A stretch of DNA of 29,866 nucleotides from a virus. The position numbers and the translations under genes were made by a program. Within the stretch, counting starts at the first letter, position 1, and each line of letters begins with the position of its first letter. The notes below the pieces were generated by a model, which was not told the origin of the DNA, did not search any database, and saw only the letters and a program-made list of their open reading frames with translations. The stretch covers positions 1 through 29,866 of the IMG/VR virus record IMGVR_UViG_3300028414_000593. The stretch is one strand, 5' to 3'. Shown piece by piece: positions 1,545 to 27,487 of this stretch.

Positions 1545-1550
1545 GTTTAT

Positions 1551-1579
1551 AGTATATAATAGTAGTATTTATTTGTCAA
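1551..1579 (-). promoter_or_regulatory. Sigma70-type promoter of the ANL gene, leaderless geometry
   Basis: Minus-strand TTGACA (1574-1579), 17-nt spacer, TATACT (1551-1556), then ATAAAC and the ATG at 1544. Initiation 6-8 bases after the -10 box would begin the RNA at or next to the start codon. The spacer also contains AATAAATA (1566-1573), one mismatch from the T4 late consensus, so late expression is possible as well. Confidence 0.75.
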
Positions 1580-1580
1580 T

Positions 1581-1617
1581 ATAAAACTAAATAAAAACCC
1601 AGCACTAAGGCTGGGTT
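1581..1617 (-). terminator. Rho-independent terminator after the tRNA operon
   Basis: On the minus strand the perfect 8-bp stem AACCCAGC/GCTGGGTT (1610-1617 with 1596-1603) encloses a 6-nt loop and runs into TTTTTATTT. It lies just downstream of tRNA-Ala and just before the ANL promoter, closing the 2.8-1.6 kb unit. Confidence 0.85.
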
Positions 1618-1622
1618 GATAA

Positions 1623-1698
1623 TGGTGGAGCTGATAGGGATCGAACCTACGACCTACTGGTTGCAAACCAGTCGCTCTCCCAACTGAGCTACAGCCCC
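1623..1698 (-). tRNA. tRNA-Ala (anticodon UGC)
   Basis: A complete 76-nt cloverleaf including an encoded 3' CCA. The acceptor GGGGCTG pairs with CAGCTCC, giving a G3.U70 wobble, the classic identity element for alanyl-tRNA synthetase, with discriminator A73. The anticodon arm is ACTGG-TTTGCAA-CCAGT and the T arm carries GGTTCGATCC. UGC reads GCA and, with wobble, other Ala codons. It lies 99 nt after tRNA-Thr and before a terminator. A perfect TATAAATA at 1710-1717 just upstream could give separate late expression. Confidence 0.96.
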
Positions 1699-1709
1699 AT
1701 GTCTCTTTA

Positions 1710-1717
1710 TATTTATA
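1710..1717 (-). promoter_or_regulatory. Candidate T4-type late promoter, TATAAATA
   Basis: An exact match to the T4 late -10 octamer lies 11 bases upstream of tRNA-Ala. Initiation about 6 nt downstream would start the RNA next to the tRNA 5' end. An 8-bp motif in AT-rich DNA can occur by chance. Confidence 0.4.
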
Positions 1718-1752
1718 CTTATTAAATTGTTTCTCTTTTGTATTTCCGTTTT

Positions 1753-1786
1753 AAGGCATTTTGCAGCCCGGCAGTCCAATCGCCTT
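1753..1786 (-). other. Imperfect hairpin between the two tRNAs
   Basis: On the minus strand AAGGC (1782-1786) pairs with GCCTT (1753-1757), and beyond a bulged G three more ATT/AAT pairs extend the stem. The loop of about 17 nt is notably GC-rich for this genome. It has no U-tract, so it is not an obvious terminator. It could be a processing signal between the tRNAs or a remnant of a lost tRNA. Confidence 0.3.
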
Positions 1787-1797
1787 TTCTTTATATC

Positions 1798-1873
1798 TGG
1801 TGCCGGTAACAGGATTCGAACTTGTGACCTACTGATTACAAATCAGTTGCTCTACCAACTGAGCTATACCGGC
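1798..1873 (-). tRNA. tRNA-Thr (anticodon UGU)
   Basis: A complete 76-nt cloverleaf with encoded CCA. The acceptor stem GCCGGTA/TACCGGC is perfect, the D arm has TAGCTCAGTTGGTAGAGC, the anticodon arm is ACTGA-TTTGTAA-TCAGT and the T arm is AAGTTCGAATC. It starts 20 bases after the stop of the glycine-zipper gene and probably shares its transcript. UGU reads ACA and, with wobble, other Thr codons. Confidence 0.96.
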
Positions 1874-1890
1874 ATATTCTTTCTACTTTT

Positions 1891-1898
1891 TATTTATC
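1891..1898 (-). promoter_or_regulatory. Possible late promoter before tRNA-Thr
   Basis: Minus-strand GATAAATA, 7 of 8 to the T4 late octamer, overlaps the end of the upstream gene 18 bases before tRNA-Thr. A weak call on sequence alone, strengthened slightly by the matching element before tRNA-Ala. Confidence 0.3.
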
Positions 1899-2445
1899 TA
1901 TATACATCTGTGATTGAATAATCAACACTTACGAATACTTTTTCGTTAATTGAATATTTTGTTTCACTTGTAAATGTATACACTTCTTTCCTTGTGTTTT
2001 GTCTACTTCCCATACTAGGCATTTTAACTGTTACTTTGTATGTTGTAGGCCCAGGTTTTGTAGTTATTCTATTTCTAAGTTCACATTGTTCTACTTGTTT
2101 GTATCCAACGATAGTTTGTTGTCCGCCTTTTTTATTGGCAAAGTCTGCCCCTAAAATTGCACCTAGTATAGTTGCAGCATCTTGTCCTTTACCACCGCCT
2201 ACTTGGTTACCTAGTATACCACCAATAATTGCACCACCTAATACTTCACCTGTTTGTGCTTTACCAGTATTTCCATAAATTGGAACATCTACTATTTTAC
2301 ATGTTCTAATGGGTGTAGTTACTTGTACTTCTGAATATTGTGGTACAACTTTTATTACAACTGCATCTAGTTGTACTGTACCAGCAATTGCCGAGTTGGC
2401 TAATAGTATCGCTGTTGCTATAATAAAATATTTAATCTTGTTCAT
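1894..2445 (-). CDS. Secreted glycine-zipper (2TM) protein
   Basis: A 183-residue exported protein. Residues 1-21 form a signal peptide with basic start MNKIK, a hydrophobic core and ANSAIA before the likely cleavage at Gly22. There is no lipobox cysteine. Residues 66-103 form a glycine zipper with repeated GxxxG steps (GEVLGGAIIGGILGNQ and ILGAILGADF), the pattern of the Rick_17kDa_Anti/glycine-zipper 2TM family of bacterial envelope proteins. Cys49 and Cys121 flank it and may form a disulfide, and the C-terminal part is beta-rich, as in bacterial members. The ATG at 2445 is chosen because AGGAG lies at proper spacing and the signal peptide begins there; the frame is open further upstream. 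Likely acquired from a bacterium. A role in the infected cell envelope, such as lysis or superinfection exclusion, is only a guess. Confidence 0.8.
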   Translation of the reverse strand: MNKIKYFIIATAILLANSAIAGTVQLDAVVIKVVPQYSEVQVTTPIRTCKIVDVPIYGNTGKAQTGEVLGGAIIGGILGNQVGGGKGQDAATILGAILGADFANKKGGQQTIVGYKQVEQCELRNRITTKPGPTTYKVTVKMPSMGSRQNTRKEVYTFTSETKYSINEKVFVSVDYSITDVYR

Positions 2446-2458
2446 AATAATCTCCTGG

Positions 2459-2746
2459 TTATTGTAGTTCGGGGAACATTTGTTTAACGTAATTCTTAAC
2501 AATCACTTCAGTGTCATTGTCTATTCCGTTAACTCGTACTCGTGGATTCTCTGTGCCAAATGTTTTAATTTCTTCTTTAGCAAGATGTAAAAGTTGTCGT
2601 TTATTCATTGTCTGTAAACTTTTTAAATCTATAGATTCGCCGACTAATGCGCTAAGAATATAGTCGCCAACATCTTCGTCACTAAGCGGAACTTCAATTT
2701 TAGCATTGATTCGCTTAACTCCATCTTTATATATTTGTGCTCTCAT
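2459..2746 (-). CDS. Conserved-looking small protein, unknown function
   Basis: A 95-residue hydrophilic protein of mixed charge, without signal peptide or membrane helix, beginning MRAQIYKDGV and ending KQMFPELQ. It is first in the operon that continues with the glycine-zipper gene (13 bases downstream) and the two tRNAs. A strong promoter ends 37 bases before its ATG. No clear Shine-Dalgarno site precedes the start. I do not recognise the family. It resembles the small early proteins that T4-like phages place next to promoters, but no motif gives a function. Confidence 0.7.
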   Translation of the reverse strand: MRAQIYKDGVKRINAKIEVPLSDEDVGDYILSALVGESIDLKSLQTMNKRQLLHLAKEEIKTFGTENPRVRVNGIDNDTEVIVKNYVKQMFPELQ

Positions 2747-2783
2747 GTTTATACCGATTTTCTTTTATAGTCCAATTATATAT

Positions 2784-2812
2784 AATATAACAGTAAGATA
2801 TGGTTTTGTCAA
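2784..2812 (-). promoter_or_regulatory. Sigma70-type promoter with conserved spacer motif
   Basis: Minus-strand TTGACA (2807-2812), 17-nt spacer, TATATT (2784-2789). The spacer ends ATCTTACTGT and the -35 box is preceded by GG, shared with the promoters at 28782-28810 and 29203-29231. Only one half-site (TCTTAC, 2793-2798) of the inverted repeat seen there is intact. It drives the 95-residue gene, the glycine-zipper gene and the tRNAs. Confidence 0.8.
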
Positions 2813-2840
2813 CCGAAATGTCTTGTTTTTTTAGATTTTT

Positions 2841-4130
2841 TTACGACCAGGACTGATCTACGGCAGATCTTACCCAAATTGCAGTAGATCCATCATAATC
2901 TGCATTTGCTATGTATATATGCGACGAGTCAGATGCAATATCACCTTTTTTGTCGCCTGGCGTTCCTATGGTTGAATTAGGAACTGTTTTTCTAACCATT
3001 GGGTTAGGATTAGTTAAATTTGTTGTTGTAATTGGTGAACTATTGCTTACGATTCCACTTTCTGCTAATCCAGTTATTCCGGGATCAGTTGATGCAGATG
3101 GTGGTGCGCCTGCGCTTTTTTCCACTACATTGTTAGGTGATGCTGTGTATGATTCAATTACTCCACAATAGTCATAATTTGGTGTTCTTTCAACTGTGTT
3201 TACTGTAGGTAAATCTTCTGATGCAAGTTGTCCAAGCATTTTTGGTTCCAATAGATATTCAAATATGTTCTTATTTTCAGGACCAACCTTATAGCCACTT
3301 AGGCTTGAATAAGCTGATTTTAATCCACCTGCTACTTGTTGTGCATGTGATAATGTAAGTGTACTTGTGTCAATTGCTGTTCCAACACCTGTGTGCGTTG
3401 ACGATTCTGTTCCTGTTGTAAAAGAACTACCACCATTTGATTCTGTGCCACTAAAATTGTTTTCAAACTCTACTAGATTTTGCATGTCAGATGCAAACGC
3501 TTTTAATTCATTAGTTAATGAGTCAATTGTATTTGCAGGTGCATTAGCAATACTTCCAAATTCATCAATGATATCACCGAGTGACTTGAGTACTCCACCT
3601 TGGAATATTCCTGCATTAAATCCGCCGCCACTTGTACATCCTCCAACATCACTATCAAACATTGTACCTAGTTTATCAAGTAAATCTTTACCTGCGCCTA
3701 AATAGGACCCAAATAAATCTTCTAATACATTTGGAATTGGCTTTGGATTAATTGGTGTTCCACAAAAGTTAATCATATTAGCAATTGCGGCAAATTCTGC
3801 AATTGCGGCATTAAGTCTACCTAACACATTATCAATGTTTGTGTGTGCAATAAATTCATCTAATGCACCTTCGGCTTCTTGTAATGCTTTATATAGCTCT
3901 GGTGGAATTCCAGGAATTCCTAATAATCTGCCAATATTAATTTTCAAACATAATTGTAAATTAGGAAGTAAAATTCCATTACCAGCAAGTAAACTACAAA
4001 TAATTTCTCTTAAACTAAAACTAGTTGTTCTCGCTTCTACTTCGCCTGTGCCAACATCTATAGTAGTACTTGTAACTAAGTCTACATCAGTATTTTTTAA
4101 GTAGTTTGCTGCTGATTGAAAATCTGCCAT
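2841..4130 (-). CDS. Virion structural protein, probably baseplate or spike-associated
   Basis: A 429-residue protein starting in the same four bases where the PAAR gene ends (TAATG overlap). Residues about 45-210 are hydrophobic and Gly/Ala/Leu-rich without being clear membrane helices. The middle (about 230-265) is Ser/Thr/Gly-rich. The C-terminal 40 residues (GTPGDKKGDIA, then HIYIANADYDGSTAIWVRS, ending QSWS) look like a small beta module common at the ends of marine-phage tail fibre and baseplate proteins. Its position directly after the PAAR tip argues for a tail-tip or baseplate role and late expression. The exact T4 counterpart is not evident. Confidence 0.65.
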   Translation of the reverse strand: MADFQSAANYLKNTDVDLVTSTTIDVGTGEVEARTTSFSLREIICSLLAGNGILLPNLQLCLKINIGRLLGIPGIPPELYKALQEAEGALDEFIAHTNIDNVLGRLNAAIAEFAAIANMINFCGTPINPKPIPNVLEDLFGSYLGAGKDLLDKLGTMFDSDVGGCTSGGGFNAGIFQGGVLKSLGDIIDEFGSIANAPANTIDSLTNELKAFASDMQNLVEFENNFSGTESNGGSSFTTGTESSTHTGVGTAIDTSTLTLSHAQQVAGGLKSAYSSLSGYKVGPENKNIFEYLLEPKMLGQLASEDLPTVNTVERTPNYDYCGVIESYTASPNNVVEKSAGAPPSASTDPGITGLAESGIVSNSSPITTTNLTNPNPMVRKTVPNSTIGTPGDKKGDIASDSSHIYIANADYDGSTAIWVRSAVDQSWS

Positions 4131-4423
4131 TACTCGCCGCCTATAGCTGTATTACCGCTACCGCTTGTTGCTTTTGGATTACAATGATTGCCGCCTGGTA
4201 TTGGACATTTGCTATCTCTCTTTGCACTATTACCTACAATAACTACAAGTTTATTATTCACATATACATTTGGATTTGCTGCTTCTAGTTCACCACCGCC
4301 GTGACTGTTTGGATCTACGTCAACACTACATAATTTGTTATTGACATAGACTGTGGTTTGGCCTGCAACTTCAGTTGAGGCTCCACATGCACGACTATCT
4401 GTATTTCTGTGAACTGCTGCCAT
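4130..4423 (-). CDS. PAAR-repeat tail spike tip protein (T4 gp5.4-like)
   Basis: A 97-residue PAAR-type protein, the same length class as T4 gp5.4. These proteins fold as small beta cones that cap the central spike of contractile tails and bind one metal ion. Two PAAR-like repeats are visible, VYVNNKLCSVDVD near 25-37 and VYVNNKLVVIVGN near 53-65, with a HGGG element and a C-terminal cluster CPIPGGNHCN whose Cys and His residues could hold the zinc or iron. It starts 1 base after the Sm-like gene ends. A perfect late octamer at 4511-4518, inside the upstream gene, could supply late transcription apart from the early ribonucleotide reductase genes. Confidence 0.85.
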   Translation of the reverse strand: MAAVHRNTDSRACGASTEVAGQTTVYVNNKLCSVDVDPNSHGGGELEAANPNVYVNNKLVVIVGNSAKRDSKCPIPGGNHCNPKATSGSGNTAIGGE

Positions 4424-4424
4424 A

Positions 4425-4721
4425 TTATGCTTTTGCTAACTGTATACCTGTTGTTTGTTGAATATATGTTGAGCTGGCGTCTTTCGCAGACTTAACTACA
4501 CATATAATACTATTTATATTCAAACGCACTTTAGCATCTGGGCTAACTGTGAACATAAATGGTGATAAGCCTACGCCTTGTTCTGCTGCTACTAAAATAA
4601 GTGGTTTGTTTAGTGAAATGTGTGTTGCTGTTTCTTCTTCAAGTTTCGCAATCATTTCTTCGCCACTGCTTAGTTTGATACTTACTATATCCCCTACTTT
4701 GTAAGGTGCTTCAATAATCAT
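4425..4721 (-). CDS. Small Sm/Lsm-like beta-barrel protein
   Basis: A 98-residue protein whose first 45 residues (GDIVSIKLSSGEEMIAKLEE followed by NKPLIL) follow the Sm1 pattern of V.I.L..GE...A.L, typical of five-stranded Sm-like barrels. The second half (VRLNINSIICVVKSAKD) could supply the Sm2-like strands. Sm-like folds often bind RNA or form rings, but here the fold is an inference from spacing only. The start overlaps the end of the glutaredoxin gene by four bases (ATGA). It lies between nucleotide-metabolism and tail genes, so either an early regulatory role or a structural one is possible. A late promoter for the next genes sits inside it. Confidence 0.65.
   Translation of the reverse strand: MIIEAPYKVGDIVSIKLSSGEEMIAKLEEETATHISLNKPLILVAAEQGVGLSPFMFTVSPDAKVRLNINSIICVVKSAKDASSTYIQQTTGIQLAKA
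4511..4518 (-). promoter_or_regulatory. Candidate late promoter TATAAATA for PAAR and baseplate genes
   Basis: An exact match to the T4 late octamer on the minus strand, inside the Sm-like gene and about 90 bases upstream of the PAAR ATG. It makes biological sense because early nrd genes and late tail genes otherwise share one run. Confidence 0.5.
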
Positions 4722-4975
4722 AATGTAAATCCTGTTCCGTTAAAATTAGTTGTTTCAATGTATGTTGTCAATTGATCATACCCGCCGATGTTTGTTCCAT
4801 TAATAAACACTTGTGGAAAGGTTCGAGCCGTTGGGGCAACTTCCATTAAATCTTCTCTTGTAAAATCTTTATCAAGCATTTTTGCTTCAAACTCGATATT
4901 CATTCTTTCAAGTAATGCCTTAGCCTTATCGCAATAAGGACAATGTGGCTTACTGTATACTACTACATTTGTCAT
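4718..4975 (-). CDS. Glutaredoxin
   Basis: An 85-residue glutaredoxin, a small thiol-disulfide oxidoreductase that would re-reduce the phage ribonucleotide reductase. The active site is CPYC (12-15) after the first beta strand (VVVYSKPH). The TFP (52-54) with the cis-proline loop and VFINGTNIGGYDQL (56-69) with the glutathione-binding GG complete the fold. The length is typical. Its ATG overlaps the nrdB stop by four bases (ATGA), and its stop overlaps the next ATG, so nrdA, nrdB and this gene form one translationally coupled set. Confidence 0.95.
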   Translation of the reverse strand: MTNVVVYSKPHCPYCDKAKALLERMNIEFEAKMLDKDFTREDLMEVAPTARTFPQVFINGTNIGGYDQLTTYIETTNFNGTGFTL

Positions 4976-6105
4976 AAACTAAATCCTTTAAATGTATCCT
5001 CGGATACGTCTTGTTTAACACCACCAACAACATAACTACTAATTTCAGTTTCTTGCGGAGCAACTTGTACTTCTGCGCCTGAAATCCATTTTTGTGTCCA
5101 TGGTAGTGGGTTTGCTTGTGATACAGTGTATGGTGACTTTAGTCCAACTGCGGTCATACGCTTTGATGCGATCCATTCAATATAATCACTTAGTAGCTGT
5201 GTGTTTAGTCCAATCATTGATCCATCTTTGAACAAGTATTCAGCCCATGCCTTTTCTTGATCTACTGCATCAACAAACATTTGGATACAATCAGCTTCTG
5301 TTTCTTTTGCAATCTTAATATAATCTGGGTCATCTTTTGGTAGAACCTTTAATAAAGATTGTGTAAATGCTAAGTGCAAGTTTTCATCACGTGCAATTAG
5401 TTTAATAATCTTAGCATTGCCTTCCATCTTTTTAAGTTCTGCAAATGCCCAAGAGCATGCGAAACTTACATAAAAACGAACGCCTTCTAAGATGTTAACA
5501 CTCATTAGTGTTTTGTATAGTAGCTTCTTCATTTCATACAAGTCTACTTCAACTGTTTTACCATTTACTTTGTGCTTACCAACACCTAGCAAATTATAAT
5601 AAGAAGATAAATCAATAAGCTGATCGTAGCATTCTGAAATGTCTCCAGCACAATCCATGATTTCTTCAATGTCCATCATTCCATCAAATACAATGCTTGG
5701 ATTAGAATAGATATTACGAATAATATGTGTATAACTACGTGAGTGAATTGTTTCACTGAATGTCCAAGTTTGAATCCATGCTTCTAATTCTGGTAAACAT
5801 GCAAGTGGACCAAATGCTTCACTTGGCGCACGGCCTTGTACACTATCTAAAAGAATTTGTCTTTTAAGATTACTTGTAAAAATATGCTGTTCGTGATCTG
5901 TTAATAGTTTAAAGTCATTTGAATCTTTAGTGACATCAACTTCTTCTGGACGCCAAAAGAATCCCAACTGCTTATCAGTTAGTTTATCAAACTGTTTATA
6001 CTTCATAGTGTCATAGCGTTGAATAGCTACTGCGCCGGCAGAATCTAAAAAAGCTAATGCCTTAGTGTGATCTGTTTTGTTGGCTGAATTAAATACTGAG
6101 CTCAT
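4972..6105 (-). CDS. nrdB: Class Ia ribonucleotide reductase, beta subunit
   Basis: A 377-residue small subunit of aerobic ribonucleotide reductase, which generates the tyrosyl radical used by NrdA to make dNTPs for phage replication. All diiron ligands and the radical tyrosine are present by comparison with E. coli NrdB: Asp87 (LLDSVQG), Glu118 and His121 (FSETIHSRSY), radical Tyr125, Glu207 (NILEGVRFY), Glu241 and His244 (ARDENLHL). The length matches bacterial and T4 NrdB, and there is no intron, unlike T4 nrdB. It lies 12 bases after nrdA with AAAGG before the ATG and overlaps the glutaredoxin gene. Confidence 0.97.
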   Translation of the reverse strand: MSSVFNSANKTDHTKALAFLDSAGAVAIQRYDTMKYKQFDKLTDKQLGFFWRPEEVDVTKDSNDFKLLTDHEQHIFTSNLKRQILLDSVQGRAPSEAFGPLACLPELEAWIQTWTFSETIHSRSYTHIIRNIYSNPSIVFDGMMDIEEIMDCAGDISECYDQLIDLSSYYNLLGVGKHKVNGKTVEVDLYEMKKLLYKTLMSVNILEGVRFYVSFACSWAFAELKKMEGNAKIIKLIARDENLHLAFTQSLLKVLPKDDPDYIKIAKETEADCIQMFVDAVDQEKAWAEYLFKDGSMIGLNTQLLSDYIEWIASKRMTAVGLKSPYTVSQANPLPWTQKWISGAEVQVAPQETEISSYVVGGVKQDVSEDTFKGFSL

Positions 6106-6117
6106 TTATATTACCTT

Positions 6118-8421: not shown

Positions 8422-8482
8422 CTGTTATCCGTTTCTTTAATTAGCTGTAAGTTATTTACAATAACACTTGACGTATAAAGTA

Positions 8483-8917
8483 TTACGTTAACTCGCTAAC
8501 TTGCGTTTTTTCTAGTATAGTAGTGTTAGAATCTAAATCATTCACACTATTTACTTTACCATAATTATAATTTAAAATGTGTGTTTTGTCTACCAAAACT
8601 ATTAAAGAAATATAACTTTCTTTTGAGTTTTGTACAAGCAAAATCTCACATTCTGCATAACCTTCTAGCTGTAATGTATACGCTATTCCCAAAGCTACGT
8701 TATTCTCATCATAGACGCCTTCCCAAATAAAATCCCAAGGTTGGGTCCATGTACTGGCATCATAAATGTCTGTGTGCATACTAGACATCGGTGCCATTTT
8801 CCAAAAGTCTACAACGGCTTGTAGTCTTCCCAGATATTCCATATCTGATAAACTTTTACGAAATTGCCTCCACAAATTCAAACGTTGCTTAGGCGAACTC
8901 TGCCAAAATTCGTTCAT
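8483..8917 (-). CDS. Conserved marine T4-like phage protein, unknown function
   Basis: A 144-residue soluble protein with a Trp-rich N-terminal half (NEFWQSSPKQRLNLWRQFRK, then TWTQPWDFIW near 56-65). It resembles a family I associate with cyanomyovirus genomes, where the N-terminus reads as short helices and the STW.PWD element is constant. No catalytic motif is apparent. AAGG precedes the ATG, and the gene follows the tail-protein gene by 9 bases, so late co-expression is likely. A role as assembly factor or virion protein is an inference from position. Confidence 0.7.
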   Translation of the reverse strand: MNEFWQSSPKQRLNLWRQFRKSLSDMEYLGRLQAVVDFWKMAPMSSMHTDIYDASTWTQPWDFIWEGVYDENNVALGIAYTLQLEGYAECEILLVQNSKESYISLIVLVDKTHILNYNYGKVNSVNDLDSNTTILEKTQVSELT

Positions 8918-8926
8918 TGTATTACC

Positions 8927-9679: not shown

Positions 9680-9706
9680 CTGCTATTCCTCGTTTTCTAT
9701 ATACTG

Positions 9707-9714
9707 TATTTATG
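9707..9714 (-). promoter_or_regulatory. Late promoter CATAAATA for the tail protein gene
   Basis: Minus-strand CATAAATA, 7 of 8 to the T4 late octamer, at the very end of the nuclease gene and 28 bases upstream of the tail-protein ATG, leaving a short leader with GAGGAA. Confidence 0.55.
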
Positions 9715-10402
9715 AAGACATGCCATAAAACTTCTCTAATCTCTTGGCCCATTGTGTAGCCCAATAAGAAAAGTCTTCTTCGGTAGATTCAAACAGTTGC
9801 CACTGGCAATCACCACTACACATAAAGATGGCAATGTTTTCAATCTTTGTTTCAAACATCTCATTATGTGCTAATGCATATGCGGCTCCTTGTAAAAAGT
9901 AGTCGTCAATCCATTCACGTTTTTTAGGTTTGTTAGTTTGCTTAAAATCCATAATAGTTGGCTTGTCTTTATACATGCCCACTAAATCTGTTGTACCTGC
10001 ATATAAATTAGCGGCACATAAATTTACTTCTGTGCCCCATATTTCATTTACATCATTTTCAATATTGTCAATAACAACTTGTGCCATATCCTTGGCTTGT
10101 CTGTGTACAATATTATTTCCAGGGTTATATGTTTCGTATTCACCTAATGCCCAATGTTCTAATATATTGTGCATAACTGTTCCACGATTAGCGGCAGTTG
10201 TAGTAATACGTTGTGCTTCTTCTGTTCCAACACGTTTACGCCAGTTAGCTAATGCTTGTCGCTTTTCTGCTGGTTGTGTAGCACTTAGGATTGTTGTTAC
10301 ACTTGGAACTGGATCGCCGTATGGATTCTCATATAGACGCTTTCCATCTACACTCTGACGCTTTAGTTCTTTGTAATCGTATTTTTTGGTAATGTTTATC
10401 AT
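9710..10402 (-). CDS. PD-(D/E)XK nuclease, RecB/Cas4-like exonuclease
   Basis: A 230-residue nuclease of the RecB-like PD-(D/E)XK group. RGTVMHNILEHW (73-84) carries the characteristic histidine helix, TTDLVG (118-123) the first acidic residue, IMDFKQTN (130-137) the D-x-K core and LQGAAYALA (150-158) the QxxxY-type helix. No four-cysteine iron-sulphur cluster as in Cas4 is evident. Such stand-alone nucleases are common in T4-like marine phages and may act in host DNA breakdown or recombination. The ATG at 10402 is exactly 6 bases after a -10 box, so the mRNA should be leaderless. The promoter lies across the end of the SGNH gene. Confidence 0.85.
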   Translation of the reverse strand: MINITKKYDYKELKRQSVDGKRLYENPYGDPVPSVTTILSATQPAEKRQALANWRKRVGTEEAQRITTTAANRGTVMHNILEHWALGEYETYNPGNNIVHRQAKDMAQVVIDNIENDVNEIWGTEVNLCAANLYAGTTDLVGMYKDKPTIMDFKQTNKPKKREWIDDYFLQGAAYALAHNEMFETKIENIAIFMCSGDCQWQLFESTEEDFSYWATQWAKRLEKFYGMSS

Positions 10403-10408
10403 AGTATT

Positions 10409-10437
10409 AGTATACTACTAATTTACTAAAAAGTCAA
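10409..10437 (-). promoter_or_regulatory. Sigma70-type promoter of the nuclease gene, leaderless geometry
   Basis: Minus-strand TTGACT (10432-10437), 17-nt spacer, TATACT (10409-10414), then AATACT and the ATG. The 15 bases TATACTAATACTATG are identical to those at the uvsW promoter. It overlaps the last codon of the upstream gene. Confidence 0.75.
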
Positions 10438-11228
10438 GTGGTTAGTGCTGATTTAACTTTGTGATTTGCAAGAATATATTCGTCTAATAATCTCTTATTT
10501 CCATGTGGATTAAGATGTTGATCTATCTTGCTTATTGTTATTCCGAGTTGATAATATGGAGTTTGCCAATTGCCTTTAGTGAAATGAGTTTCTACATCTA
10601 CATCCCACGTAGTTGAAGAACGAGTTGGTAGATCTGTTCCGTTCTCATTAGTAACTTGATGACTAAACCGTGTCCAATCAAGTAAAAATATATGCTCAAA
10701 ATTATATAATTTTTCTACGTTTGAATACCATTTTAATTCCCAATCTGTACGCCATTGATTATTACAGTACTGTACTCTCCAAAAATTCTTATTTTTCTCA
10801 AAGTACTTTGCAACGTCATCAAATTCTGTATCTTCTAGACGATCGTTGGGACCATAAGCCCTGTTTGGTCCACTATTGGTGCTACCCCACATAAAAGAAA
10901 AATCACATAGCCACTCTGTCCAATTGTTTCCGATGCTGTGGGTTTTTATGAATTTAAAATCATGTCCTGTTACATCAAATTCAAGTTGCCAGCGACCTAA
11001 ATATGTTCTGTTTAAGAATATAATATCTGCGCCCCACATTTTAGCATCTAATAGAGCCAGCTGAAATCCTTGTATTCCTTGGCCGCCTCTGGAATAATTT
11101 CTATATTCGTGTTGTGGGAATTTTTGAGACAACTGAAATGTCCAGTTGTTCTTGCCTTGTGTTTCTTGTTCGAGTCCAGCAAAATGACTGCACCCAATGA
11201 AGGCTATCTTCTTAGATGCAGTCGTCAT
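10434..11228 (-). CDS. SGNH/GDSL-type hydrolase-like protein
   Basis: A 264-residue protein with the layout of SGNH esterases. Block I is IAFIGCSHFAG with candidate nucleophile Ser14 after a beta strand, block II is NYSRGGQGIQGF (about 44-55), and the C-terminal block is DQHLNPHG (236-243) with Asp236 and His238 in the D-x-H arrangement seen in DltD/AlgX-like members. The usual GxND block III is not clear (IFLNRT is the best candidate), so activity is uncertain. Phage SGNH enzymes often deacetylate surface or virion sugars; the substrate here is unknown. It starts 2 bases after the nitroreductase stop and lacks a visible Shine-Dalgarno site, which suggests reinitiation. Confidence 0.7.
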   Translation of the reverse strand: MTTASKKIAFIGCSHFAGLEQETQGKNNWTFQLSQKFPQHEYRNYSRGGQGIQGFQLALLDAKMWGADIIFLNRTYLGRWQLEFDVTGHDFKFIKTHSIGNNWTEWLCDFSFMWGSTNSGPNRAYGPNDRLEDTEFDDVAKYFEKNKNFWRVQYCNNQWRTDWELKWYSNVEKLYNFEHIFLLDWTRFSHQVTNENGTDLPTRSSTTWDVDVETHFTKGNWQTPYYQLGITISKIDQHLNPHGNKRLLDEYILANHKVKSALTT

Positions 11229-11230
11229 GT

Positions 11231-12316: not shown

Positions 12317-12337
12317 AGTGGGTATTCTCCTTGTAAT

Positions 12338-19951: not shown

Positions 19952-19982
19952 CAGCCCAAACTCCTAAACTGGATATTACTTG

Positions 19983-20020
19983 TATTTATCTATTATACAG
20001 TTATTTGTTAACTTTTTTCA
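19983..20020 (-). promoter_or_regulatory. Late and possible early promoter of the nucleotidyltransferase/ligase operon
   Basis: Minus-strand GATAAATA (19983-19990), 7 of 8 to the late octamer, follows TATAAT with an 18-nt spacer from TTGAAA, a fair sigma70 match at the very end of the helicase gene. Both would feed the operon starting at 19951, so expression may span early and late infection. Confidence 0.5.
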
Positions 20021-21398: not shown

Positions 21399-22402
21399 TT
21401 ACAATATTTCCTTCCAATAACCTGTATTTTTGTAGGATTACTTATAGCACTATCTAATATACTACGCACTGTAAATAATCTGCCGTATTTCATTAACGCA
21501 TCGCCGGCATCGTTGCAATCTTCCCATTCAGGAAATGCAACACTCCATCCGTATTTAACTGCTGCATCTACCATTTTCATTCCTGCCTCGTCGGCATCTG
21601 GTAATACAATAATTTGTTTGTTTAAACTCAAAATAACGTCTGCTTGTTCTTCACTAATAGTATTAGTGCCTGCACTGATTCCATCTGTTATTATAGCATC
21701 TAAAGGACCTTCTGTCAATATAACAATTTCTTTGTCAGCATGTTGTCTGTCTAATCCATAAACAAAGTTTTTAGCTGGTTGTTGATTATAATACTTAGGC
21801 ATTCCTTCTGGTGGCTTACCTATCCAACGACCTGTATATCCAATTACTTTATTTTTATAATAAAAAGGTATTACAAAACGCTTTGACATTCTAGCTGGCT
21901 GTTTAGCCGGACTATACATCAGTCTAGGATCTGTTATATCAAATCCTCTGTTTGTTAAATATTCTACTGCTTCAGTCCAGTTTGTATCTGGCGTATGTTC
22001 CATAAATGGCTTTGTATTTTCAGGCAATGCTACTTCTGGCCAATCAATTACTAGTTTCTTTCTGCGCTCTTGTACCATTAGTGTATGTGTGATATCAAGT
22101 TCACGCATAAGCTCTAATTGTAAACGCTGTACTGCGGCTTCATCTGCACCAAATTTTAATAATAAGTTTTTTAGTCTATTATTAACTTTATTACCTGGAC
22201 TCCAACCTGTTTTATAATGACAGTTAAAGCAATGATACTGAAACTTATCGTCATCAAAGTGAAATCCACCACGTCCACGTGTATCTGGCCTAGCTTGTCC
22301 ATTTGTTATACACATAGGGCAATTACCAGAATGCCAACCACTAGGGCTAGGCTTCCAGTTCGTCGGAATCAGATTTCTGACGTATTCGATCATTAAACTC
22401 AT
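21395..22402 (-). CDS. 61: DNA primase, T4 gp61-like
   Basis: A 335-residue primase that makes RNA primers on the lagging strand in complex with gp41. A zinc ribbon uses Cys28, Cys31, Cys58 and Cys61 (CPMC and CFNC). A TOPRIM domain has Glu231 (LTEGPLDAI) and Asp269/Asp271 (LPDADEAG), the metal-binding residues. The length matches T4 gp61 (342). The ATG is 6 bases after a TAATAT -10 box with no room for a ribosome binding site, so translation should begin on a leaderless mRNA. The promoter sits at the end of a late structural gene, separating early replication genes from it. Confidence 0.96.
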   Translation of the reverse strand: MSLMIEYVRNLIPTNWKPSPSGWHSGNCPMCITNGQARPDTRGRGGFHFDDDKFQYHCFNCHYKTGWSPGNKVNNRLKNLLLKFGADEAAVQRLQLELMRELDITHTLMVQERRKKLVIDWPEVALPENTKPFMEHTPDTNWTEAVEYLTNRGFDITDPRLMYSPAKQPARMSKRFVIPFYYKNKVIGYTGRWIGKPPEGMPKYYNQQPAKNFVYGLDRQHADKEIVILTEGPLDAIITDGISAGTNTISEEQADVILSLNKQIIVLPDADEAGMKMVDAAVKYGWSVAFPEWEDCNDAGDALMKYGRLFTVRSILDSAISNPTKIQVIGRKYCK

Positions 22403-22408
22403 GTGTAT

Positions 22409-22437
22409 ATATTACACTCGAATTATGACTTTGTCAA
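22409..22437 (-). promoter_or_regulatory. Sigma70-type promoter of primase-helicase, leaderless geometry
   Basis: Minus-strand TTGACA (22432-22437), 17-nt spacer, TAATAT (22409-22414), then ATACAC and the ATG at 22402. It overlaps the final codons of the upstream structural gene. Confidence 0.8.
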
Positions 22438-23233
22438 GTGTTCCTTGCGTTTGTGTGAATTTTGCTCTAAGATATTTTATATTAGTACGGAATGTCCATG
22501 GATCAATTCCAGTAAAGCCAATATATGGATAATGTTCATCTGTGTGCGTACCCAATATAATATTAAACCAGTCGTTTTCTGTAGGGTTTTCTTCTAATGC
22601 GCCCTGTATGTAAAAGTTACCTGTATAGTTAGTGGCGTATACTGCCAATGTAATCATTCCATTAACTTTGTTGTATGCACCAGGTCCTGGTAAATGACTA
22701 CTGTAGTAAAATCCATCAGATTCTATAAATGTATCACCTGTAGAAGTTGTTAATGGAATATTTCTTGTTTGGTCGCTTACTTCAACCGTATAATTTGGTC
22801 TTAGGTTTTGATCTACAAATAATGGAAGATTTAAACCCTGTGAATTTACATAGGTAAATACAAGATCAAGGAAACCGTTTTGTATTGAACTTATCTCACC
22901 GGCAGAGACAACTAGCTTAACTTTGCCTTCGTCGAAGTCTAATATTTGACATTTCTTTGCTACTATTTTTGCTTGGGTTTCTCTATTGGTTAAATTAGCC
23001 ATAATAGTTTGACCATGTAGCTGTATTGGTTTACGATCTATGTTTTTTATGTAAAAAATAAACTCATTATCTAAACCGGTAAATAGCTTTAAGAAACGAT
23101 AATTGACAGGAGAGTTTATAGTAGTTCCTGCCGCACTTGCATAGCTACCCAATCCAGCTTTGCTACCTGAGGCATCTATTGCATATAAATCGCCTGTTTG
23201 ATTAATATTATAAGTTGTTGCGTAATTTGACAT
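22412..23233 (-). CDS. Virion structural protein, baseplate type
   Basis: A 273-residue beta-rich protein. The segment FIFYIKNIDRKPIQLHGQTI (58-77), followed by INFO-free strands and VKLVVSAGEISSIQNGFLDL, resembles the N-terminal module of baseplate upper proteins (BppU-like) that attach to the tail. The C-terminal third (NFYIQGALEENPTENDWFNI) has the look of a small beta sandwich. AGGAG precedes the ATG, and a CATAAATA late promoter lies at 23253-23260. It ends directly at the primase promoter. The T4 counterpart is not clear. Confidence 0.65.
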   Translation of the reverse strand: MSNYATTYNINQTGDLYAIDASGSKAGLGSYASAAGTTINSPVNYRFLKLFTGLDNEFIFYIKNIDRKPIQLHGQTIMANLTNRETQAKIVAKKCQILDFDEGKVKLVVSAGEISSIQNGFLDLVFTYVNSQGLNLPLFVDQNLRPNYTVEVSDQTRNIPLTTSTGDTFIESDGFYYSSHLPGPGAYNKVNGMITLAVYATNYTGNFYIQGALEENPTENDWFNIILGTHTDEHYPYIGFTGIDPWTFRTNIKYLRAKFTQTQGTLDKVIIRV

Positions 23234-23252
23234 TCATATTCTCCTGTGTATG

Positions 23253-23260
23253 TATTTATG
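23253..23260 (-). promoter_or_regulatory. Late promoter CATAAATA for the baseplate-type gene
   Basis: Minus-strand CATAAATA, 7 of 8 to the T4 late octamer, 19 bases before the ATG with AGGAG in the leader. It is divergent to the plus-strand element at 23291-23298. Confidence 0.6.
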
Positions 23261-23290
23261 CAAATTACAAAAACCGCTGGTAAAAAAATT

Positions 23291-23298
23291 AATAAATA
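23291..23298 (+). promoter_or_regulatory. Plus-strand late promoter AATAAATA
   Basis: AATAAATA, 7 of 8 to the T4 late octamer, lies 8 bases before the ATG at 23307. Initiation about 6 nt downstream would leave almost no leader, and no Shine-Dalgarno site is present. Confidence 0.45.
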
Positions 23299-23306
23299 TA
23301 TGTACA

Positions 23307-23678
23307 ATGATTGAAAAATATAAAACCTTGTTAGAAGAATTTCCATTCTTAACTGTCATAGAGTATGCCGGAAATGAATACCTAGGAATAATGCAAAATA
23401 TCGATAACCATATAGCTACAATGTATGTTTACGATAGACTAGGATCAAATGCGGAACGTCAATCGTTTTTGAGATTGGGCGATGAGTGGTGGTGGGAAAC
23501 AAATCGGAAACTACCTATCAATATTGCATTATTAAATAGATGGCCATTTAGTGCTACAAGTCAAAGTTTTAATATAAAACAAATGGAAGTAGTTGCTGGA
23601 CCTGAAGTTAGACTAAGCGACAGTATTACAAAACGTATTAAACGCCGTAATATCAGTCTTATAAAGAAAGACCCATAA
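23307..23678 (+). CDS. Conserved T4-like marine phage protein, unknown (only plus-strand gene)
   Basis: A 123-residue protein with an N-terminal beta part (FLTVIEYAGNEYLGIMQN), a Trp-rich centre (LGDEWWWETNRKLPINI) and a basic C-terminus (SITKRIKRRNISLIKK). The GDEWWWE.NR.LPINI element resembles a family I associate with cyanomyoviruses. The ATG at 23307 starts the conserved-looking region; the frame is open 57 bases further upstream, but that part is low complexity. It converges with the DnaE-like gene, overlapping its end by 20 bases. It has its own late-type promoter and shares a 73-base divergent control region with the baseplate-type gene. Function unknown; likely virion or assembly. Confidence 0.7.
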   Translation: MIEKYKTLLEEFPFLTVIEYAGNEYLGIMQNIDNHIATMYVYDRLGSNAERQSFLRLGDEWWWETNRKLPINIALLNRWPFSATSQSFNIKQMEVVAGPEVRLSDSITKRIKRRNISLIKKDP

Positions 23679-24237
23679 CTAGCATATTAAGTTGTAGTAC
23701 AATAGCCATTGCATAACTTATTGCGTGTGCTTTTTTAAAATAATATGTTCCGTCTGTTGGTTTATCCCATACAGTAGCAAACACTGTATTCCAATCTTTA
23801 CCTAATAAATTACGTTTAGCTGGTCTAATGATTGCCAGTACGGCTGCAAGTTCTTCAACGCTTGTTGGTTTCATTCTGCTTACAATGTTGTAGTGTGCAT
23901 GTATGTGAAATAATTTTTCAACAACTTCTTTGTGTTCTAATAAATCCCACATTGGTTGCATTTCAAGTAATTTTTCTAATTGATCATAGCTTTCAACATC
24001 TTTATATAAACTTACATTTAACACATCAAGTTTAAAATAGCCTTTAGCTTCAGCTTCCTTGTGATCAATTGTGCTTAACCCAGTAAATGGATCGCTTGGC
24101 ATTTCATGGAAGTATACACCAGTGTTATGCTTTTTGCGTCTACCATTATCATTAATCATTGCAGGTGTATGTTTAATTAAGTTTAATAACTTAGTTCTAT
24201 CTGCTACATCAATGTCAATATCTGTGTTTACTATCAT
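23659..24237 (-). CDS. Miniature DnaE-like protein (DNA polymerase III alpha palm remnant)
   Basis: A 192-residue protein that reads as a condensed piece of bacterial replicative polymerase DnaE. NTDIDIDVADR (4-14) matches the catalytic PD-D/F-D-D motif with two aspartates. KKHNTGVYFHEMP (35-47) matches the RHAG.HAGGV region. AKGYFKLDVLNVSLYKDV (64-81) matches the G-L-V-K-F-D-F-L-G-L-L/R-T motif with the third catalytic Asp at 71. YYFKKAHAISYAMAIVLQ (near 166-183) matches FNKSHA..YA. The roughly 80-90 residues that normally separate the first motifs are missing, as are PHP, fingers and beta-binding parts. It could be a catalytic miniature, a non-catalytic accessory factor or a decoy. It starts in the stop of the zinc-finger gene (ATGA); the ATG at 24237 is chosen over the frame extension upstream. 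Confidence 0.7.
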   Translation of the reverse strand: MIVNTDIDIDVADRTKLLNLIKHTPAMINDNGRRKKHNTGVYFHEMPSDPFTGLSTIDHKEAEAKGYFKLDVLNVSLYKDVESYDQLEKLLEMQPMWDLLEHKEVVEKLFHIHAHYNIVSRMKPTSVEELAAVLAIIRPAKRNLLGKDWNTVFATVWDKPTDGTYYFKKAHAISYAMAIVLQLNMLVMGLSL

Positions 24238-24914
24238 AAGTGTGCTTCTTCCATAATTCCTTCTACCCATTTAAAATCTTCGGCATGTGTTTTCATAACT
24301 CGTTGCCAATAATATGGATCAATATAATCCGATACCATTTGTATTTGTTCACTTGAGAGCTTCTCTAATAGCTCTTGTGCTTGCGAACTTGCATATACTA
24401 TCCATGGACTAATCCTACCACTACAGATGTGAAATACTGCAAGATTTGGCGCTACTAGACGGAAGTATTCGTTCCATTCACATCCTGTTTCTTTAGCCCA
24501 TTCTCGCATAAACAGTATAGTTCGTTCTATGGCTCTATCTGCACTTTCTGTTTTTAATCTTGTTTTAATCCATGCCGCAAAGTTTCTATCACTTGTCCAT
24601 CTGTCAATTCTTACTTGATTCTTCAATAGCCAACGTGTATATTCTTGTACATCATCAACACGTAAATCTATACAGTACTTTGCATACTTTACAAATGCAG
24701 TATAATACTGACTTGCTACAAATTCATCAAAACTTTTCTCACCTTTTGCATTTGTTCCTATGCGATAAAACAATTGATATGACCTATATGCAAGTTGCAC
24801 ATCTTTGTCATCCTTAGACATATATCTGCGTTTACGTTCGCACATATGCACCGCTAATGTGCTTTCACGTTTAAATACTTTCTTACAATATTCGCATTTA
24901 AAAACTTCTGTCAT
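24234..24914 (-). CDS. Zinc-finger protein, unknown, partner of the DnaE-like gene
   Basis: A 226-residue protein with an N-terminal zinc finger of Cys7, Cys10, His23 and Cys25 (CEYCKKVFKREST, then HMCERKRR), a C2HC variant of the classical finger that often contacts DNA. The remaining 190 residues are helical and charged (FDEFVASQYYTAFVKYAKYC, IRTRLKTE-like segment) without an enzyme motif, with FHICSGRISPWIVYAS near the middle. Both ends overlap neighbours by four bases (ATGA), so it is made stoichiometrically with the DnaE-like and the 152-residue proteins. Resembles T4-like marine phage proteins; a DNA-binding role in replication is an inference. Confidence 0.65.
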   Translation of the reverse strand: MTEVFKCEYCKKVFKRESTLAVHMCERKRRYMSKDDKDVQLAYRSYQLFYRIGTNAKGEKSFDEFVASQYYTAFVKYAKYCIDLRVDDVQEYTRWLLKNQVRIDRWTSDRNFAAWIKTRLKTESADRAIERTILFMREWAKETGCEWNEYFRLVAPNLAVFHICSGRISPWIVYASSQAQELLEKLSSEQIQMVSDYIDPYYWQRVMKTHAEDFKWVEGIMEEAHL

Positions 24915-25369
24915 TTAAGTTTACCAATGAGATCTTTTATTTCTTTGTCCTTTAATCCATACTCTTGTAGCAGTGCCTTAATTTCATCTTTGCTACTGCT
25001 TAACATAATATCAAGTTCATCATCATTGAGATGCGAATAGTTTTCTGCAAACCAATTTTGTAATTTATTTTTCTTGCCTGCTTTACCTGGTGCTATCCAA
25101 GGATGGAATACCGTAGAACCTACTCCAACCAATTGTAGCAACTGATATTGCAACTGCGGGTGTTTTCTTATTGTGTTAAAATGCACATTAACTGCTTCGT
25201 TAGTCCATTCTAAATAATGCTCTGCATACTTACCGCTTGCGTTACTTGTATAACGCATTAATAACCATAAGCCAAGTTTTTTCTTTTCTTCATCTGTGAG
25301 GCTATCATACCACGCTCTGTCTTTAGCGTCAATAGATCTCATTTCTTCTTTAATACTTAACTTGCTCAT
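24911..25369 (-). CDS. Helical protein of the DnaE-like cassette, unknown
   Basis: A 152-residue helical protein, charged at both ends (SIKEEMRSIDAKDRAWYDSL, then LQEYGLKDKEIKDLIGKLK), with a more hydrophobic middle (LQYQLLQLVGVGSTVFHPWI). No catalytic motif. It is chained by ATGA overlaps to the 37-residue ORF upstream and the zinc-finger gene downstream. The start has only a weak GGAAA before it, so translation likely depends on coupling. The promoter at 25480-25508 is the nearest upstream. Function unknown. Confidence 0.65.
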   Translation of the reverse strand: MSKLSIKEEMRSIDAKDRAWYDSLTDEEKKKLGLWLLMRYTSNASGKYAEHYLEWTNEAVNVHFNTIRKHPQLQYQLLQLVGVGSTVFHPWIAPGKAGKKNKLQNWFAENYSHLNDDELDIMLSSSKDEIKALLQEYGLKDKEIKDLIGKLK

Positions 25370-25479
25370 TTATAGTTTCCGTCTATGTCGTAATGCTTAT
25401 TATTATATCGAGCCCATAGCAAACAATTCCACCAAGGATATCCTTGTTTTCTTAATTTCTTATACCACGCCCAATACAT
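25366..25479 (-). CDS. Possible 37-residue Trp-rich micro-protein
   Basis: A short frame beginning MYWAWYKKLRKQGYPWWNCL, with five tryptophans and six tyrosines, ending in a TGA inside the ATG of the next gene (ATGA). The overlap and the coding-like composition favour a real gene. Against it, there is no Shine-Dalgarno site and the -10 box of the promoter at 25480-25508 abuts its ATG, so transcripts from that promoter would begin inside it. It would have to be translated from read-through RNA. Confidence 0.4.
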   Translation of the reverse strand: MYWAWYKKLRKQGYPWWNCLLWARYNNKHYDIDGNYK

Positions 25480-25508
25480 ACTATACTACCAAAGTTCGCC
25501 AATGTCAA
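25480..25508 (-). promoter_or_regulatory. Sigma70-type promoter inside the upstream gene's end
   Basis: Minus-strand TTGACA (25503-25508), 17-nt spacer, TATAGT (25480-25485). It lies over the last codons of the gene at 25486-25986 and would transcribe the 152-residue, zinc-finger and DnaE-like genes. Confidence 0.65.
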
Positions 25509-25986
25509 GCACTTCTGGTAACTTGTTTGCATCTTTAACAAACAGTACACAAGGTGAGTTTGGCTCATCGCTTAGTGGAACACATAACAAGTGTCCATAT
25601 TTTAATTTAGGTGCATACCATTTTACATCACTGTATATGTTAACAATTGAAATATCTACATACTCTGGCTTGAAACCTGTGATTGGATTAAATGCAAATG
25701 CTGTAAAGCCTCTATCATTCAAACTCATTAAACTCATAACTTCAGGGTCGCCTACTTCAGCATCACATATAACAATGTGCCAATCAAGTGGCATACTAAT
25801 AGTTACTTGTCCTAGTTGTAATATTGCCGCTGGTGCATAAAAACTTTCTAAGAACACTAGTGGAATAAAGTAATAATCTATATTGCTTGGGTTTGTATAA
25901 TCAAGAATACCATATCGCAGGTCATCAATAGTTTCTGGAATGTCATCTAAATCATACGTCTCATTTTCTACGGTTAATATTTTCAT
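25486..25986 (-). CDS. Conserved-looking phage protein, unknown
   Basis: A 166-residue acidic, beta-rich protein beginning MKILTVENETYDLDDIPET. The central PLDWHIVICDAEVGDPEVM and FAFNPITGFKPEYVDISIV are distinctive and look like a family found across T4-like marine phages. No enzyme motif is visible. It starts 12 bases after uvsW with GAGA as a weak ribosome site and belongs to the same transcript. The strand-rich core with a D-W-H-I-V-I-C-D motif could be a small binding domain. A role near replication or late regulation is suggested only by its neighbours. Confidence 0.65.
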   Translation of the reverse strand: MKILTVENETYDLDDIPETIDDLRYGILDYTNPSNIDYYFIPLVFLESFYAPAAILQLGQVTISMPLDWHIVICDAEVGDPEVMSLMSLNDRGFTAFAFNPITGFKPEYVDISIVNIYSDVKWYAPKLKYGHLLCVPLSDEPNSPCVLFVKDANKLPEVLDIGELW

Positions 25987-25997
25987 TTAGTTCTCTC

Positions 25998-27452
25998 TTA
26001 ACGCCAATCTGTCTTTTCAATAGTAAAAGGATAATTAGCTTCTTTATAAAATTTCTTACGTTCAGTAAGATGCTTTTTGCTAAACTTGGCTGTGCTAGTC
26101 ACATCCCAAATTTGCACAAAATCTTTGTCTTCGGCTTTACGCACTCCACGTCCTATTGACTGGATAACTCTAACAAACGACTTCCCAGGTTCAAGAAGTA
26201 TAAGGTTAAATATACGTGGAATATTAATACCAACGGCAGCCACACCATAGGTTGCGACAGTAATGCTATTAGTTGCTTCATTAATTTCATCATATGCGTC
26301 CTTTCTGTCAGTGACTTTCATAGCCCCTTTAACAAAAGTAACATTTGGTATATTTTCTGCAATTATCTCACCGCTTGCAATTCTATCAACTAATACAAGT
26401 GTATTCCCAGATTCAGCAACTGTTGAAATAAAGTTACTAAGATATCCCATACGTTCTTTATTTGTTGTTAAATATTTTAATTCACTTTGATAATCGTTAT
26501 ATACCGCTGTTTCTTTTAATTGAACTACATTAACGTGACAGTTACTTAGAACTCCCATGTCTTGTAATTCGCTTGCACTTAGTTTGTTTGTAACCTCACC
26601 TAAGCATGCTTGTAAACTTGTTTTAGCATGATCTTCTTTTGGTATAGTTCCTGTTAATCCCCAACGTAATGGAATGTGTGCAAATTCCTTAGTAAGCATA
26701 TCTTTTAAGACATCTGCTTTTGCTTGGTGAACTTCGTCTACGATAACACAAACAACTCCATCTGAAAACTCTTTTAAACTCATATCGTCTAGACCATCTC
26801 TGAATCTTTTCTTAATACTATTCAAGCTCTGCCATGTGCATATTGTATGGGTGCGTCCTATATCTTTTTTGTCGCCATAATAAACTCCAACGTCAAGTCC
26901 TAAATTCTCATAATCATCAAATGTCTGTCTCACTAAATCTTTGTTTGGGACAATAACAATTGACCTTCCATACTTTTCCACTCGTTCAGATAGAGCTGCT
27001 GTGATCAGTGTCTTACCAGCACCAGTGGCAATTTCTTGCAAGCATTGTGGCGTAGTAAGATATTTGTTTACAATAGTAATTTGATAATCTCGCAATACAA
27101 CTGGCTGTCCTGCAATAGGATGCTTTTCTGGCCAAGTCTTGTGTGCAAAAGTAGATTCATCTACTGCAACAAAATCAAATGATTCGTTAGATTGTCGTCT
27201 GTCGTCTACGTCAATAGAATAACCATTGTCCATAATAATAGGTAACAACCTATCAAGTAGATTAACATATGTCACACCGCCTACACTAAAGAAACTTACA
27301 CATCCATCCCATCTACCTAGTTTATACGCTGGTACATGAAATGCATACGGCATAAAGAACTTTAGTTCTTTCTCGCATTTTTTACGGGTGTTTAAATCGA
27401 GACCTTCGATTTTACAGTTTACTTCGTCTTTGATTACTATTGTACAATTCAT
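25998..27452 (-). CDS. uvsW: UvsW-type recombination and repair helicase
   Basis: A 484-residue superfamily 2 helicase like T4 UvsW, which remodels forks, unwinds R-loops and drives branch migration. After an N-terminal region typical of UvsW (about 1-115), the Q-like VVLRDYQ precedes Walker A ATGAGKT (142-148). DEVH (239-242) is motif II, LTGTIPK (267-273) motif III, and QSIGRGVR (431-438) motif VI with the arginine finger. The length fits T4 UvsW (about 500). In T4 this gene is late. Here it has a strong sigma70-type promoter whose -10 box is 6 bases from the ATG and lacks a Shine-Dalgarno site, so early leaderless expression is expected. Confidence 0.95.
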   Translation of the reverse strand: MNCTIVIKDEVNCKIEGLDLNTRKKCEKELKFFMPYAFHVPAYKLGRWDGCVSFFSVGGVTYVNLLDRLLPIIMDNGYSIDVDDRRQSNESFDFVAVDESTFAHKTWPEKHPIAGQPVVLRDYQITIVNKYLTTPQCLQEIATGAGKTLITAALSERVEKYGRSIVIVPNKDLVRQTFDDYENLGLDVGVYYGDKKDIGRTHTICTWQSLNSIKKRFRDGLDDMSLKEFSDGVVCVIVDEVHQAKADVLKDMLTKEFAHIPLRWGLTGTIPKEDHAKTSLQACLGEVTNKLSASELQDMGVLSNCHVNVVQLKETAVYNDYQSELKYLTTNKERMGYLSNFISTVAESGNTLVLVDRIASGEIIAENIPNVTFVKGAMKVTDRKDAYDEINEATNSITVATYGVAAVGINIPRIFNLILLEPGKSFVRVIQSIGRGVRKAEDKDFVQIWDVTSTAKFSKKHLTERKKFYKEANYPFTIEKTDWR

Positions 27453-27458
27453 AGTATT

Positions 27459-27487
27459 AGTATACTATAGTTTAGTTGCATTGTCAA
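27459..27487 (-). promoter_or_regulatory. Sigma70-type promoter of uvsW, leaderless geometry
   Basis: Minus-strand TTGACA (27482-27487), 17-nt spacer, TATACT (27459-27464), then AATACT and the ATG at 27452. The -10-to-ATG segment is identical to that of the nuclease gene at 10402. Confidence 0.8.

Follow-up and report, generated by a model that had tools for sequence, protein, structure and literature searches.

Predicted leaderless genes behind sigma70-type and late-type promoters in a phage genome fragment and its relatives in the T4 superfamily

In bacterial leaderless genes, the start codon follows the −10 box at a distance of about 12 nucleotides (nt; Zheng et al. 2011, PMC3160421), and for Deinococcus-Thermus a "−10 region adjacent to ORFs" (open reading frames) has been described (PMC12340547). 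Among proteobacteria, such signals are reported for few genomes, 2/117 alpha and 15/239 gamma (Zheng et al., PMC3160421). In bacteria, a ribosome carrying the initiator tRNA is described as taking the 5′ AUG of leaderless mRNAs (PMC9031893, PMC3160421), and the lambda cI message is a leaderless phage mRNA (PMC3160421, PMC9031893). For cyanomyoviruses, which belong to the T4 superfamily, host sigma70 promoters are described for early and NATAAATA promoters for late transcription (PMC2984593). Both leaderless genes and −10-adjacent starts are already established for bacteria, and individual cases for phages. Thermus phage P23-45 reportedly also has a leaderless class. Here we analysed a 29,866-nt stretch of viral DNA (IMG/VR record IMGVR_UViG_3300028414_000593, positions 1 to 29,866; hereafter the window), in which four genes have a sigma70-type promoter placed so close to the ATG that their mRNAs are predicted to be leaderless. 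Just as in the bacterial genes, as far as the cited papers describe them, TANNNT would set the transcription start at the start codon and a Shine-Dalgarno sequence is missing; unlike them, the genes belong to phages, have a full TTGACA −35 box, fall into two promoter classes and stand alongside leadered promoters. Lambda cI likewise gives a phage message that opens with its AUG, but there one regulated gene is concerned and here several conserved families.

The pattern TTGAC[A/T]-N17-TANNNT-N6-ATG occurs four times in the window, always on the minus strand and with TATACT or TAATAT as the −10 box (Table 1), so that the first-pass annotation was right about all four sites, their 17-nt spacer and their 6-nt gap. 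The same exact pattern had a mean of 0.02 matches in 100 dinucleotide-preserving shuffles, none of which (0/100) reached four. According to Pfam and PHROGs, the genes encode an AMP-binding (acyl-adenylating) enzyme, a PD-(D/E)XK-type exonuclease (phrog_298), a Toprim primase and a UvsW-like helicase; the Pfam scores of the primase and the nuclease are under the curated cut-off, and the tblastn and PHROG matches concur. The acyl-adenylating enzyme promoter is preceded by a tRNA-Ala gene (1698-1623) and then a terminator-like hairpin (1617-1596), the exonuclease −35 box shares bases with the stop codon of gene 10434-11228, and the primase −35 box sits in the final codons of gene 22412-23233 (...GTLDKVIIRV*), whose stop codon TAA (22414-22412) forms the first letters of the primase −10 box. 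A Shine-Dalgarno sequence is missing at all four sites, as had been noticed before; the accompanying statement that most other genes possess one did not hold, since a simple motif count found it at only 13/37 other start positions, including position 2448, which is not a start codon and was scored as motif-positive. Very probably, the four sites are sigma70-type promoters starting transcription at the A of the start codon, and the resulting mRNAs would be leaderless. Two of the sites do share the 15 identical bases pointed out earlier, TATACTAATACTATG, but these were rejected as a separate signal, as the orthologues keep the spacing with other letters there.

To place the geometry in relatives, IMG/VR was scanned with the four proteins, yielding at least 80 loci each for uvsW, primase and nuclease and 6 for the acyl ligase. 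ORFs of at least 70 amino acids (aa) were called from the first ATG in 296 loci, and clustering of the upstream 45-mers at 80% identity left 2,381 of the 3,113 distinct starts. The gap was taken as the distance from the −10 box of TTGACN-N16..18-TANNNT to the ATG. The results clearly showed two modes: 77 clustered starts have a gap of 6, with 7 at 5, 7 at 7, 4 at 8 and 4 at 9, then 6 starts in all at gaps 10-20, and a second, broad mode of 105 starts at 21-37. With the mirrored pattern, no start (0) fell at gaps 5-7, and in shuffles each gap drew about 0.1 starts. The fixed geometry suggested by the first-pass annotation is thus far above chance and kept across diverged relatives, and the 6-nt gap is clearly commoner than other spacings. 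The same two groups appear per family: of the 85 families whose promoter is no more than 50 nt away, gap 5-8 is represented in 21, gap 9-19 in 8 and gap 20-45 in 66. Furthermore, when all genes of seven long contigs were taken, 25/1,007 starts had gaps of 5-7 (23 exactly 6) vs. 54 at 20-40. The query families account for fifteen of the 25 (7 primase, 5 nuclease, 2 uvsW, 1 acyl ligase), and among the 10 others, 5 show the P-loop start of the deoxynucleoside monophosphate (dNMP) kinase family.

The two groups also differ in their translation signals. A Shine-Dalgarno-like motif precedes 1/94 starts at gap 5-8 vs. 95/122 at gap 20-45; it is found in 753/2,135 starts lacking a strict promoter, and 30 more starts have other gaps. 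The spacer is 17 in 81/94 of the gap-5-8 cases, and their hexamers are TTGACA and TATAAT-like, as in a sigma70-type promoter. The base before the ATG is C or T in 64/77 gap-6 starts, vs. 43% of the 2,135 other starts and 57% of the leadered class. In leadered promoters, a pyrimidine is favoured at the 6th (68%) and A at the 7th base (63%) past the −10 box, and therefore the A of the ATG in the leaderless class lies at the apparent start position of the leadered promoters. These features bear on an alternative in which the promoters are real but leave leaders of a few nt, with the ATG still served by the leaderless pathway or else by non-Shine-Dalgarno initiation. Gaps of 7-9 do occur (7, 4 and 4 starts), the primase gap being 9 in L139/L140, and the choice of a transcription start site can vary by 1-3 nt. 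The peak at exactly 6 with its sharp shoulders (77 vs. 7 and 7), and the pyrimidine at the predicted −1 position in 83%, as expected for a start at A, make this alternative unlikely. Most likely, the host sigma70 polymerase starts RNA at the A of the ATG. The 5′-terminal AUG would then presumably be taken by a ribosome that carries the initiator tRNA, with no need for a Shine-Dalgarno sequence.

The remaining sigma70-type promoters in these phages are predicted to yield leaders of 20-45 nt that contain a Shine-Dalgarno sequence, and in some the spacer carries a dyad. This dyad, AAGA-NN-TCTT, is present in 31/122 leadered promoters vs. 0/94 leaderless ones. Between the −35 and −10 boxes of leadered early promoters it reads GTAAGAYRTCTTAC or close to it, in many cases with TATACTGTAAGTATA after it; it occurs in the window at 28804-28787 and 29225-29208 (minus strand), as well as in L265, L267, L289, L304 and others. 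The dyad resembles a repressor operator. A further sigma70-type site, TTGACA-N17-TATATT, lies at 2812 of the window.

Taken by family, 22/29 clustered members of the nuclease, 13/24 of the primase and 20/78 of uvsW have the strict promoter at gap 5-8, as do 4/5 members of the dNMP kinase and 12/27 of a 350-400 aa family with no assigned function. The AAA ATPase family shows 1/39 at gap 5-8 and 26/39 at gap 20-50. The gamma-glutamyl cyclotransferase is another of the predicted leaderless families. In uvsW, primase and nuclease, the geometry returns in relatives with different spacer letters and different upstream genes, and the mean spacer identity in nuclease and uvsW is 0.38 vs. 0.30 after shuffling; in other words, the letters are little conserved and the gap is kept. 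These sequence comparisons allow us to conclude that primase, exonuclease, UvsW, dNMP kinase and the 350-400 aa family are mostly of the predicted leaderless type when a promoter is present, and that this placement is an evolved, gene- and lineage-specific trait of these phages.

Several observations weigh against this conclusion. As 55/78 clustered uvsW members have no strict promoter upstream, the trait is restricted in this family, and the leadered arrangement was found in 1 nuclease, 3 uvsW, 1 primase and 1 dNMP kinase member. The acyl-ligase promoter lacks conservation: of the six IMG/VR loci, three are near-identical copies, and the three others (L251, L252 and L253, at 84-85%) lack it and have an AGGAG-type motif instead, so that the acyl-adenylating enzyme is no conserved member of the set in which it had been placed. 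The conservation of the primase −35 box is in part accounted for by its position within a coding sequence. The loci were gathered by the four query genes, which weights the pooled gap histogram to them (the unselected contigs contribute 10 other starts), and the start codons were set by a simple first-ATG rule. This rule misplaced two starts, the AAA ATPase case at gap 5-8 in L019 and a gap-2 case in L027, where an in-frame downstream ATG follows AGGAG or GGAG; internal starts preceded by a Shine-Dalgarno motif in codons 2-31 showed no enrichment (3/95 vs. 129/2,286). As a separate observation, an AMP-binding (acyl-adenylating) enzyme such as that of window gene 156-1544 was found in a phage context at only these six IMG/VR loci.

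It could also be argued that AT-rich sequence and coding constraint (a C-terminal xTTGACAAA) produce functionless promoter look-alikes by chance or compaction. The primase −35 box indeed falls in the motif G[TS][LVI]DK at the end of the upstream gene (codons L/V-D-K), whose stop codon supplies the first letters of the −10 box; moreover, a 12/12 promoter-like site at 21718 is nothing but a TOPRIM coding stretch. We regard this explanation as highly improbable, since it is contradicted by the shuffle and mirror controls, by the unrelated upstream contexts of nuclease and uvsW, by the lack of a peak in T4 and 121Q under the same script, and by the primase itself. In 32 distinct ORF ends with G[TS][LVI]DK, Asp is encoded by GAC in 29, and the promoter-start arrangement at gap 5-9 follows in 29/29; Asp is GAT in 3/32, and the arrangement follows in 0/3. 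GAC makes up 31% of Asp codons genome-wide. The sequences are related, so that this is a qualitative pattern rather than a significance test. In L050 (GAT) and L162 the primase promoter is relocated past the upstream gene, with gaps of 7 and 6, respectively. The 12/12 site, a perfect TTGACA-N17-TATAAT at 21718-21690 within the primase TOPRIM coding region, probably arose by chance from the coding sequence.

Late-type boxes behave in a similar way. Among the relatives, [CT]ATAAATA stands at a gap of 5 before 18 starts, at 6 before 3, at 7 before 2 and at 4 before 1, with none at 9-14 and 51 starts at 15-26. Late transcription in T4 starts about 6 nt past the box, and therefore an N5 gap would put the late start at the A of the ATG. 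The window has one late-box-N5-ATG match (Table 1), which is weak when taken alone, as 25/100 shuffles contain at least one; the arrangement with gap 5 also precedes a similar protein (MEF[IL/V]..AIIGGL..) in L267, L289 and L294. In pelagiphage HTVC008M (L382-L384), 7 of the 15 late boxes within 40 nt stand at exactly N5, and several of the seven listed genes are annotated as structural. The late (ATAAATA) promoters possibly hold a leaderless subclass of their own.

The first-pass annotation had proposed a dedicated leaderless set marking early genes. The named conserved members are indeed nucleotide and replication genes with sigma70-type promoters, and in this phage the leaderless genes would be expressed early. 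As a dedicated set, the proposal is improbable and not supported: the late-type boxes peak at N5-ATG too, HTVC008M included, many sigma70-type promoters of the same phages are leadered, and the predicted leaderless members include the gamma-glutamyl cyclotransferase family and a TonB-receptor-like gene. The latter, a TonB-dependent-receptor-like gene at L283 8103-9866 (contig G002), has its sigma70-type promoter at gap 5. An attempt to assign a host from this gene failed, none of 12 pattern matches being confirmed.

Table 1. Predicted promoters and start sites in the window
Feature	Position	Strand	Elements
Predicted leaderless promoter, AMP-binding (acyl-adenylating) enzyme gene	1542..1579	-	−35 TTGACA 1579-1574; −10 TATACT 1556-1551; gap 1550-1545; ATG 1544-1542
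Predicted leaderless promoter, PD-(D/E)XK exonuclease gene	10400..10437	-	−35 TTGACT 10437-10432; −10 TATACT 10414-10409; ATG 10402-10400
Predicted leaderless promoter, primase gene	22400..22437	-	−35 TTGACA 22437-22432; −10 TAATAT 22414-22409; ATG 22402-22400
Predicted leaderless promoter, UvsW-like helicase gene	27450..27487	-	−35 TTGACA 27487-27482; −10 TATACT 27464-27459; ATG 27452-27450
Late-type box, predicted leaderless late start, gene 27496-27828	27826..27841	-	CATAAATA 27841-27834; TTAAC; ATG 27828-27826
Leadered sigma70-type promoter, AAA ATPase gene (27887-28750)	28748..28810	-	TTGACA-N17-TAATAT; spacer dyad GTAAGACATCTTAC; leader with TAGGAG; ATG 28750-28748
Leadered sigma70-type promoter	29167..29231	-	TTGACA-N17-TATAAT; spacer dyad CCAAGACATCTTGC; leader with AGAGGA; ATG ~29169

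Cultured phages were run through the same script, SCTP-2 over 343 of its 440 kb and the other genomes nearly whole. The sigma70 pattern at gap 4-7 was found before 25/1,062 starts of the related contigs, 1/404 of PA5oct, 5/419 of SCTP-2 and 2/304 of P-SSM2, and before 0/575 starts of the E. coli jumbo phage 121Q, 0/249 of T4 and 0/150 of HTVC008M, the last having 5 at gap 8-13. In T4, the sigma70 pattern precedes no start at gaps of 40 or less, which makes this phage uninformative for the early class. The late box at gap 4-7 was counted 20 times in the related contigs, 8 in HTVC008M, 3 in SCTP-2 and once each in PA5oct and P-SSM2, with 0 in 121Q and 0 in T4, where all 23 late boxes within 40 nt have a gap of 8 or more. 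As in the cyanomyoviruses (PMC2984593), the kinds of boxes are those of the T4-superfamily promoter classes, but in T4 and 121Q they lie further upstream of the gene. A flexible pattern count in seven jumbo genomes exceeded its control in 6/7 on the forward pattern; these hits mostly lack gene context and were not used.

The closest cultured protein matches for UvsW, primase and exonuclease come from the RaK2-like jumbo phages (PA5oct, RaK2, 121Q and SCTP-2), which share the gene order, so that the label "T4-type" given to the window earlier is right in a loose sense only. Jumbo phages of this kind have genomes above 200 kb with a RaK2-like core; the window is a 29,866-base fragment, and the longest related contigs have 204,772 and 204,100 bases and are possibly incomplete. 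When the first 20 kb of the window were searched for near-identical DNA in cultured phages, eight records came back, matching over tRNA stretches only. Just as the window genes, the PA5oct exonuclease (TTGACA-17-TATAAT-7-ATG) and primase (TTGACA-17-TATAAT-6-GTG) look leaderless, and so does the primase frame of SCTP-2 (TTGACA-16-TAGCAT-6-ATG). In 121Q and RaK2, unlike the window, leaders carrying Shine-Dalgarno-like motifs precede these genes. The predicted leaderless primase start lies 96 nt upstream of the annotated one in SCTP-2 (L311 12282) and 6 nt downstream of it in PA5oct (L309 37885), which suggests that both annotated starts are probably off.

A search of open-licence PMC titles and abstracts returned no description of leaderless transcription in T4-superfamily phages, which is weak evidence of absence, and a term search of PMC11079468 and PMC6892783 found neither "promoter" nor "leaderless". 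Within the open-licence literature searched, no conserved, gene-specific class of leaderless genes in both the sigma70 and the late promoters of T4-superfamily phages came up. As the predicted leaderless replication genes stand among structural genes, we infer that a promoter tucked into the 3′ end of the preceding gene may allow expression before late transcription while taking little space. A wider proposal, which we consider rather doubtful, is that in a large group of aquatic T4-superfamily phages leaderless mRNAs form a standing second mode of expression, chosen gene by gene under sigma70 and late promoters, by which changes in ribosomes or initiation factors in the course of infection could shift translation between the sets; low-copy replication enzymes would then be leaderless and the other early genes leadered, some with the spacer dyad.

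If the leaderless reading of the four sites and their relatives is true, a sizeable group of abundant aquatic phages begins some of its replication messages and some of its late messages at the AUG. Wrong annotated start codons would be predicted, as for the SCTP-2 and PA5oct primases, which matters when such genes are to be expressed in E. coli. The cultured phages PA5oct and HTVC008M bring this reading within experimental reach, and such phages would offer a system in which leadered and leaderless, early and late messages can be compared within one infection.

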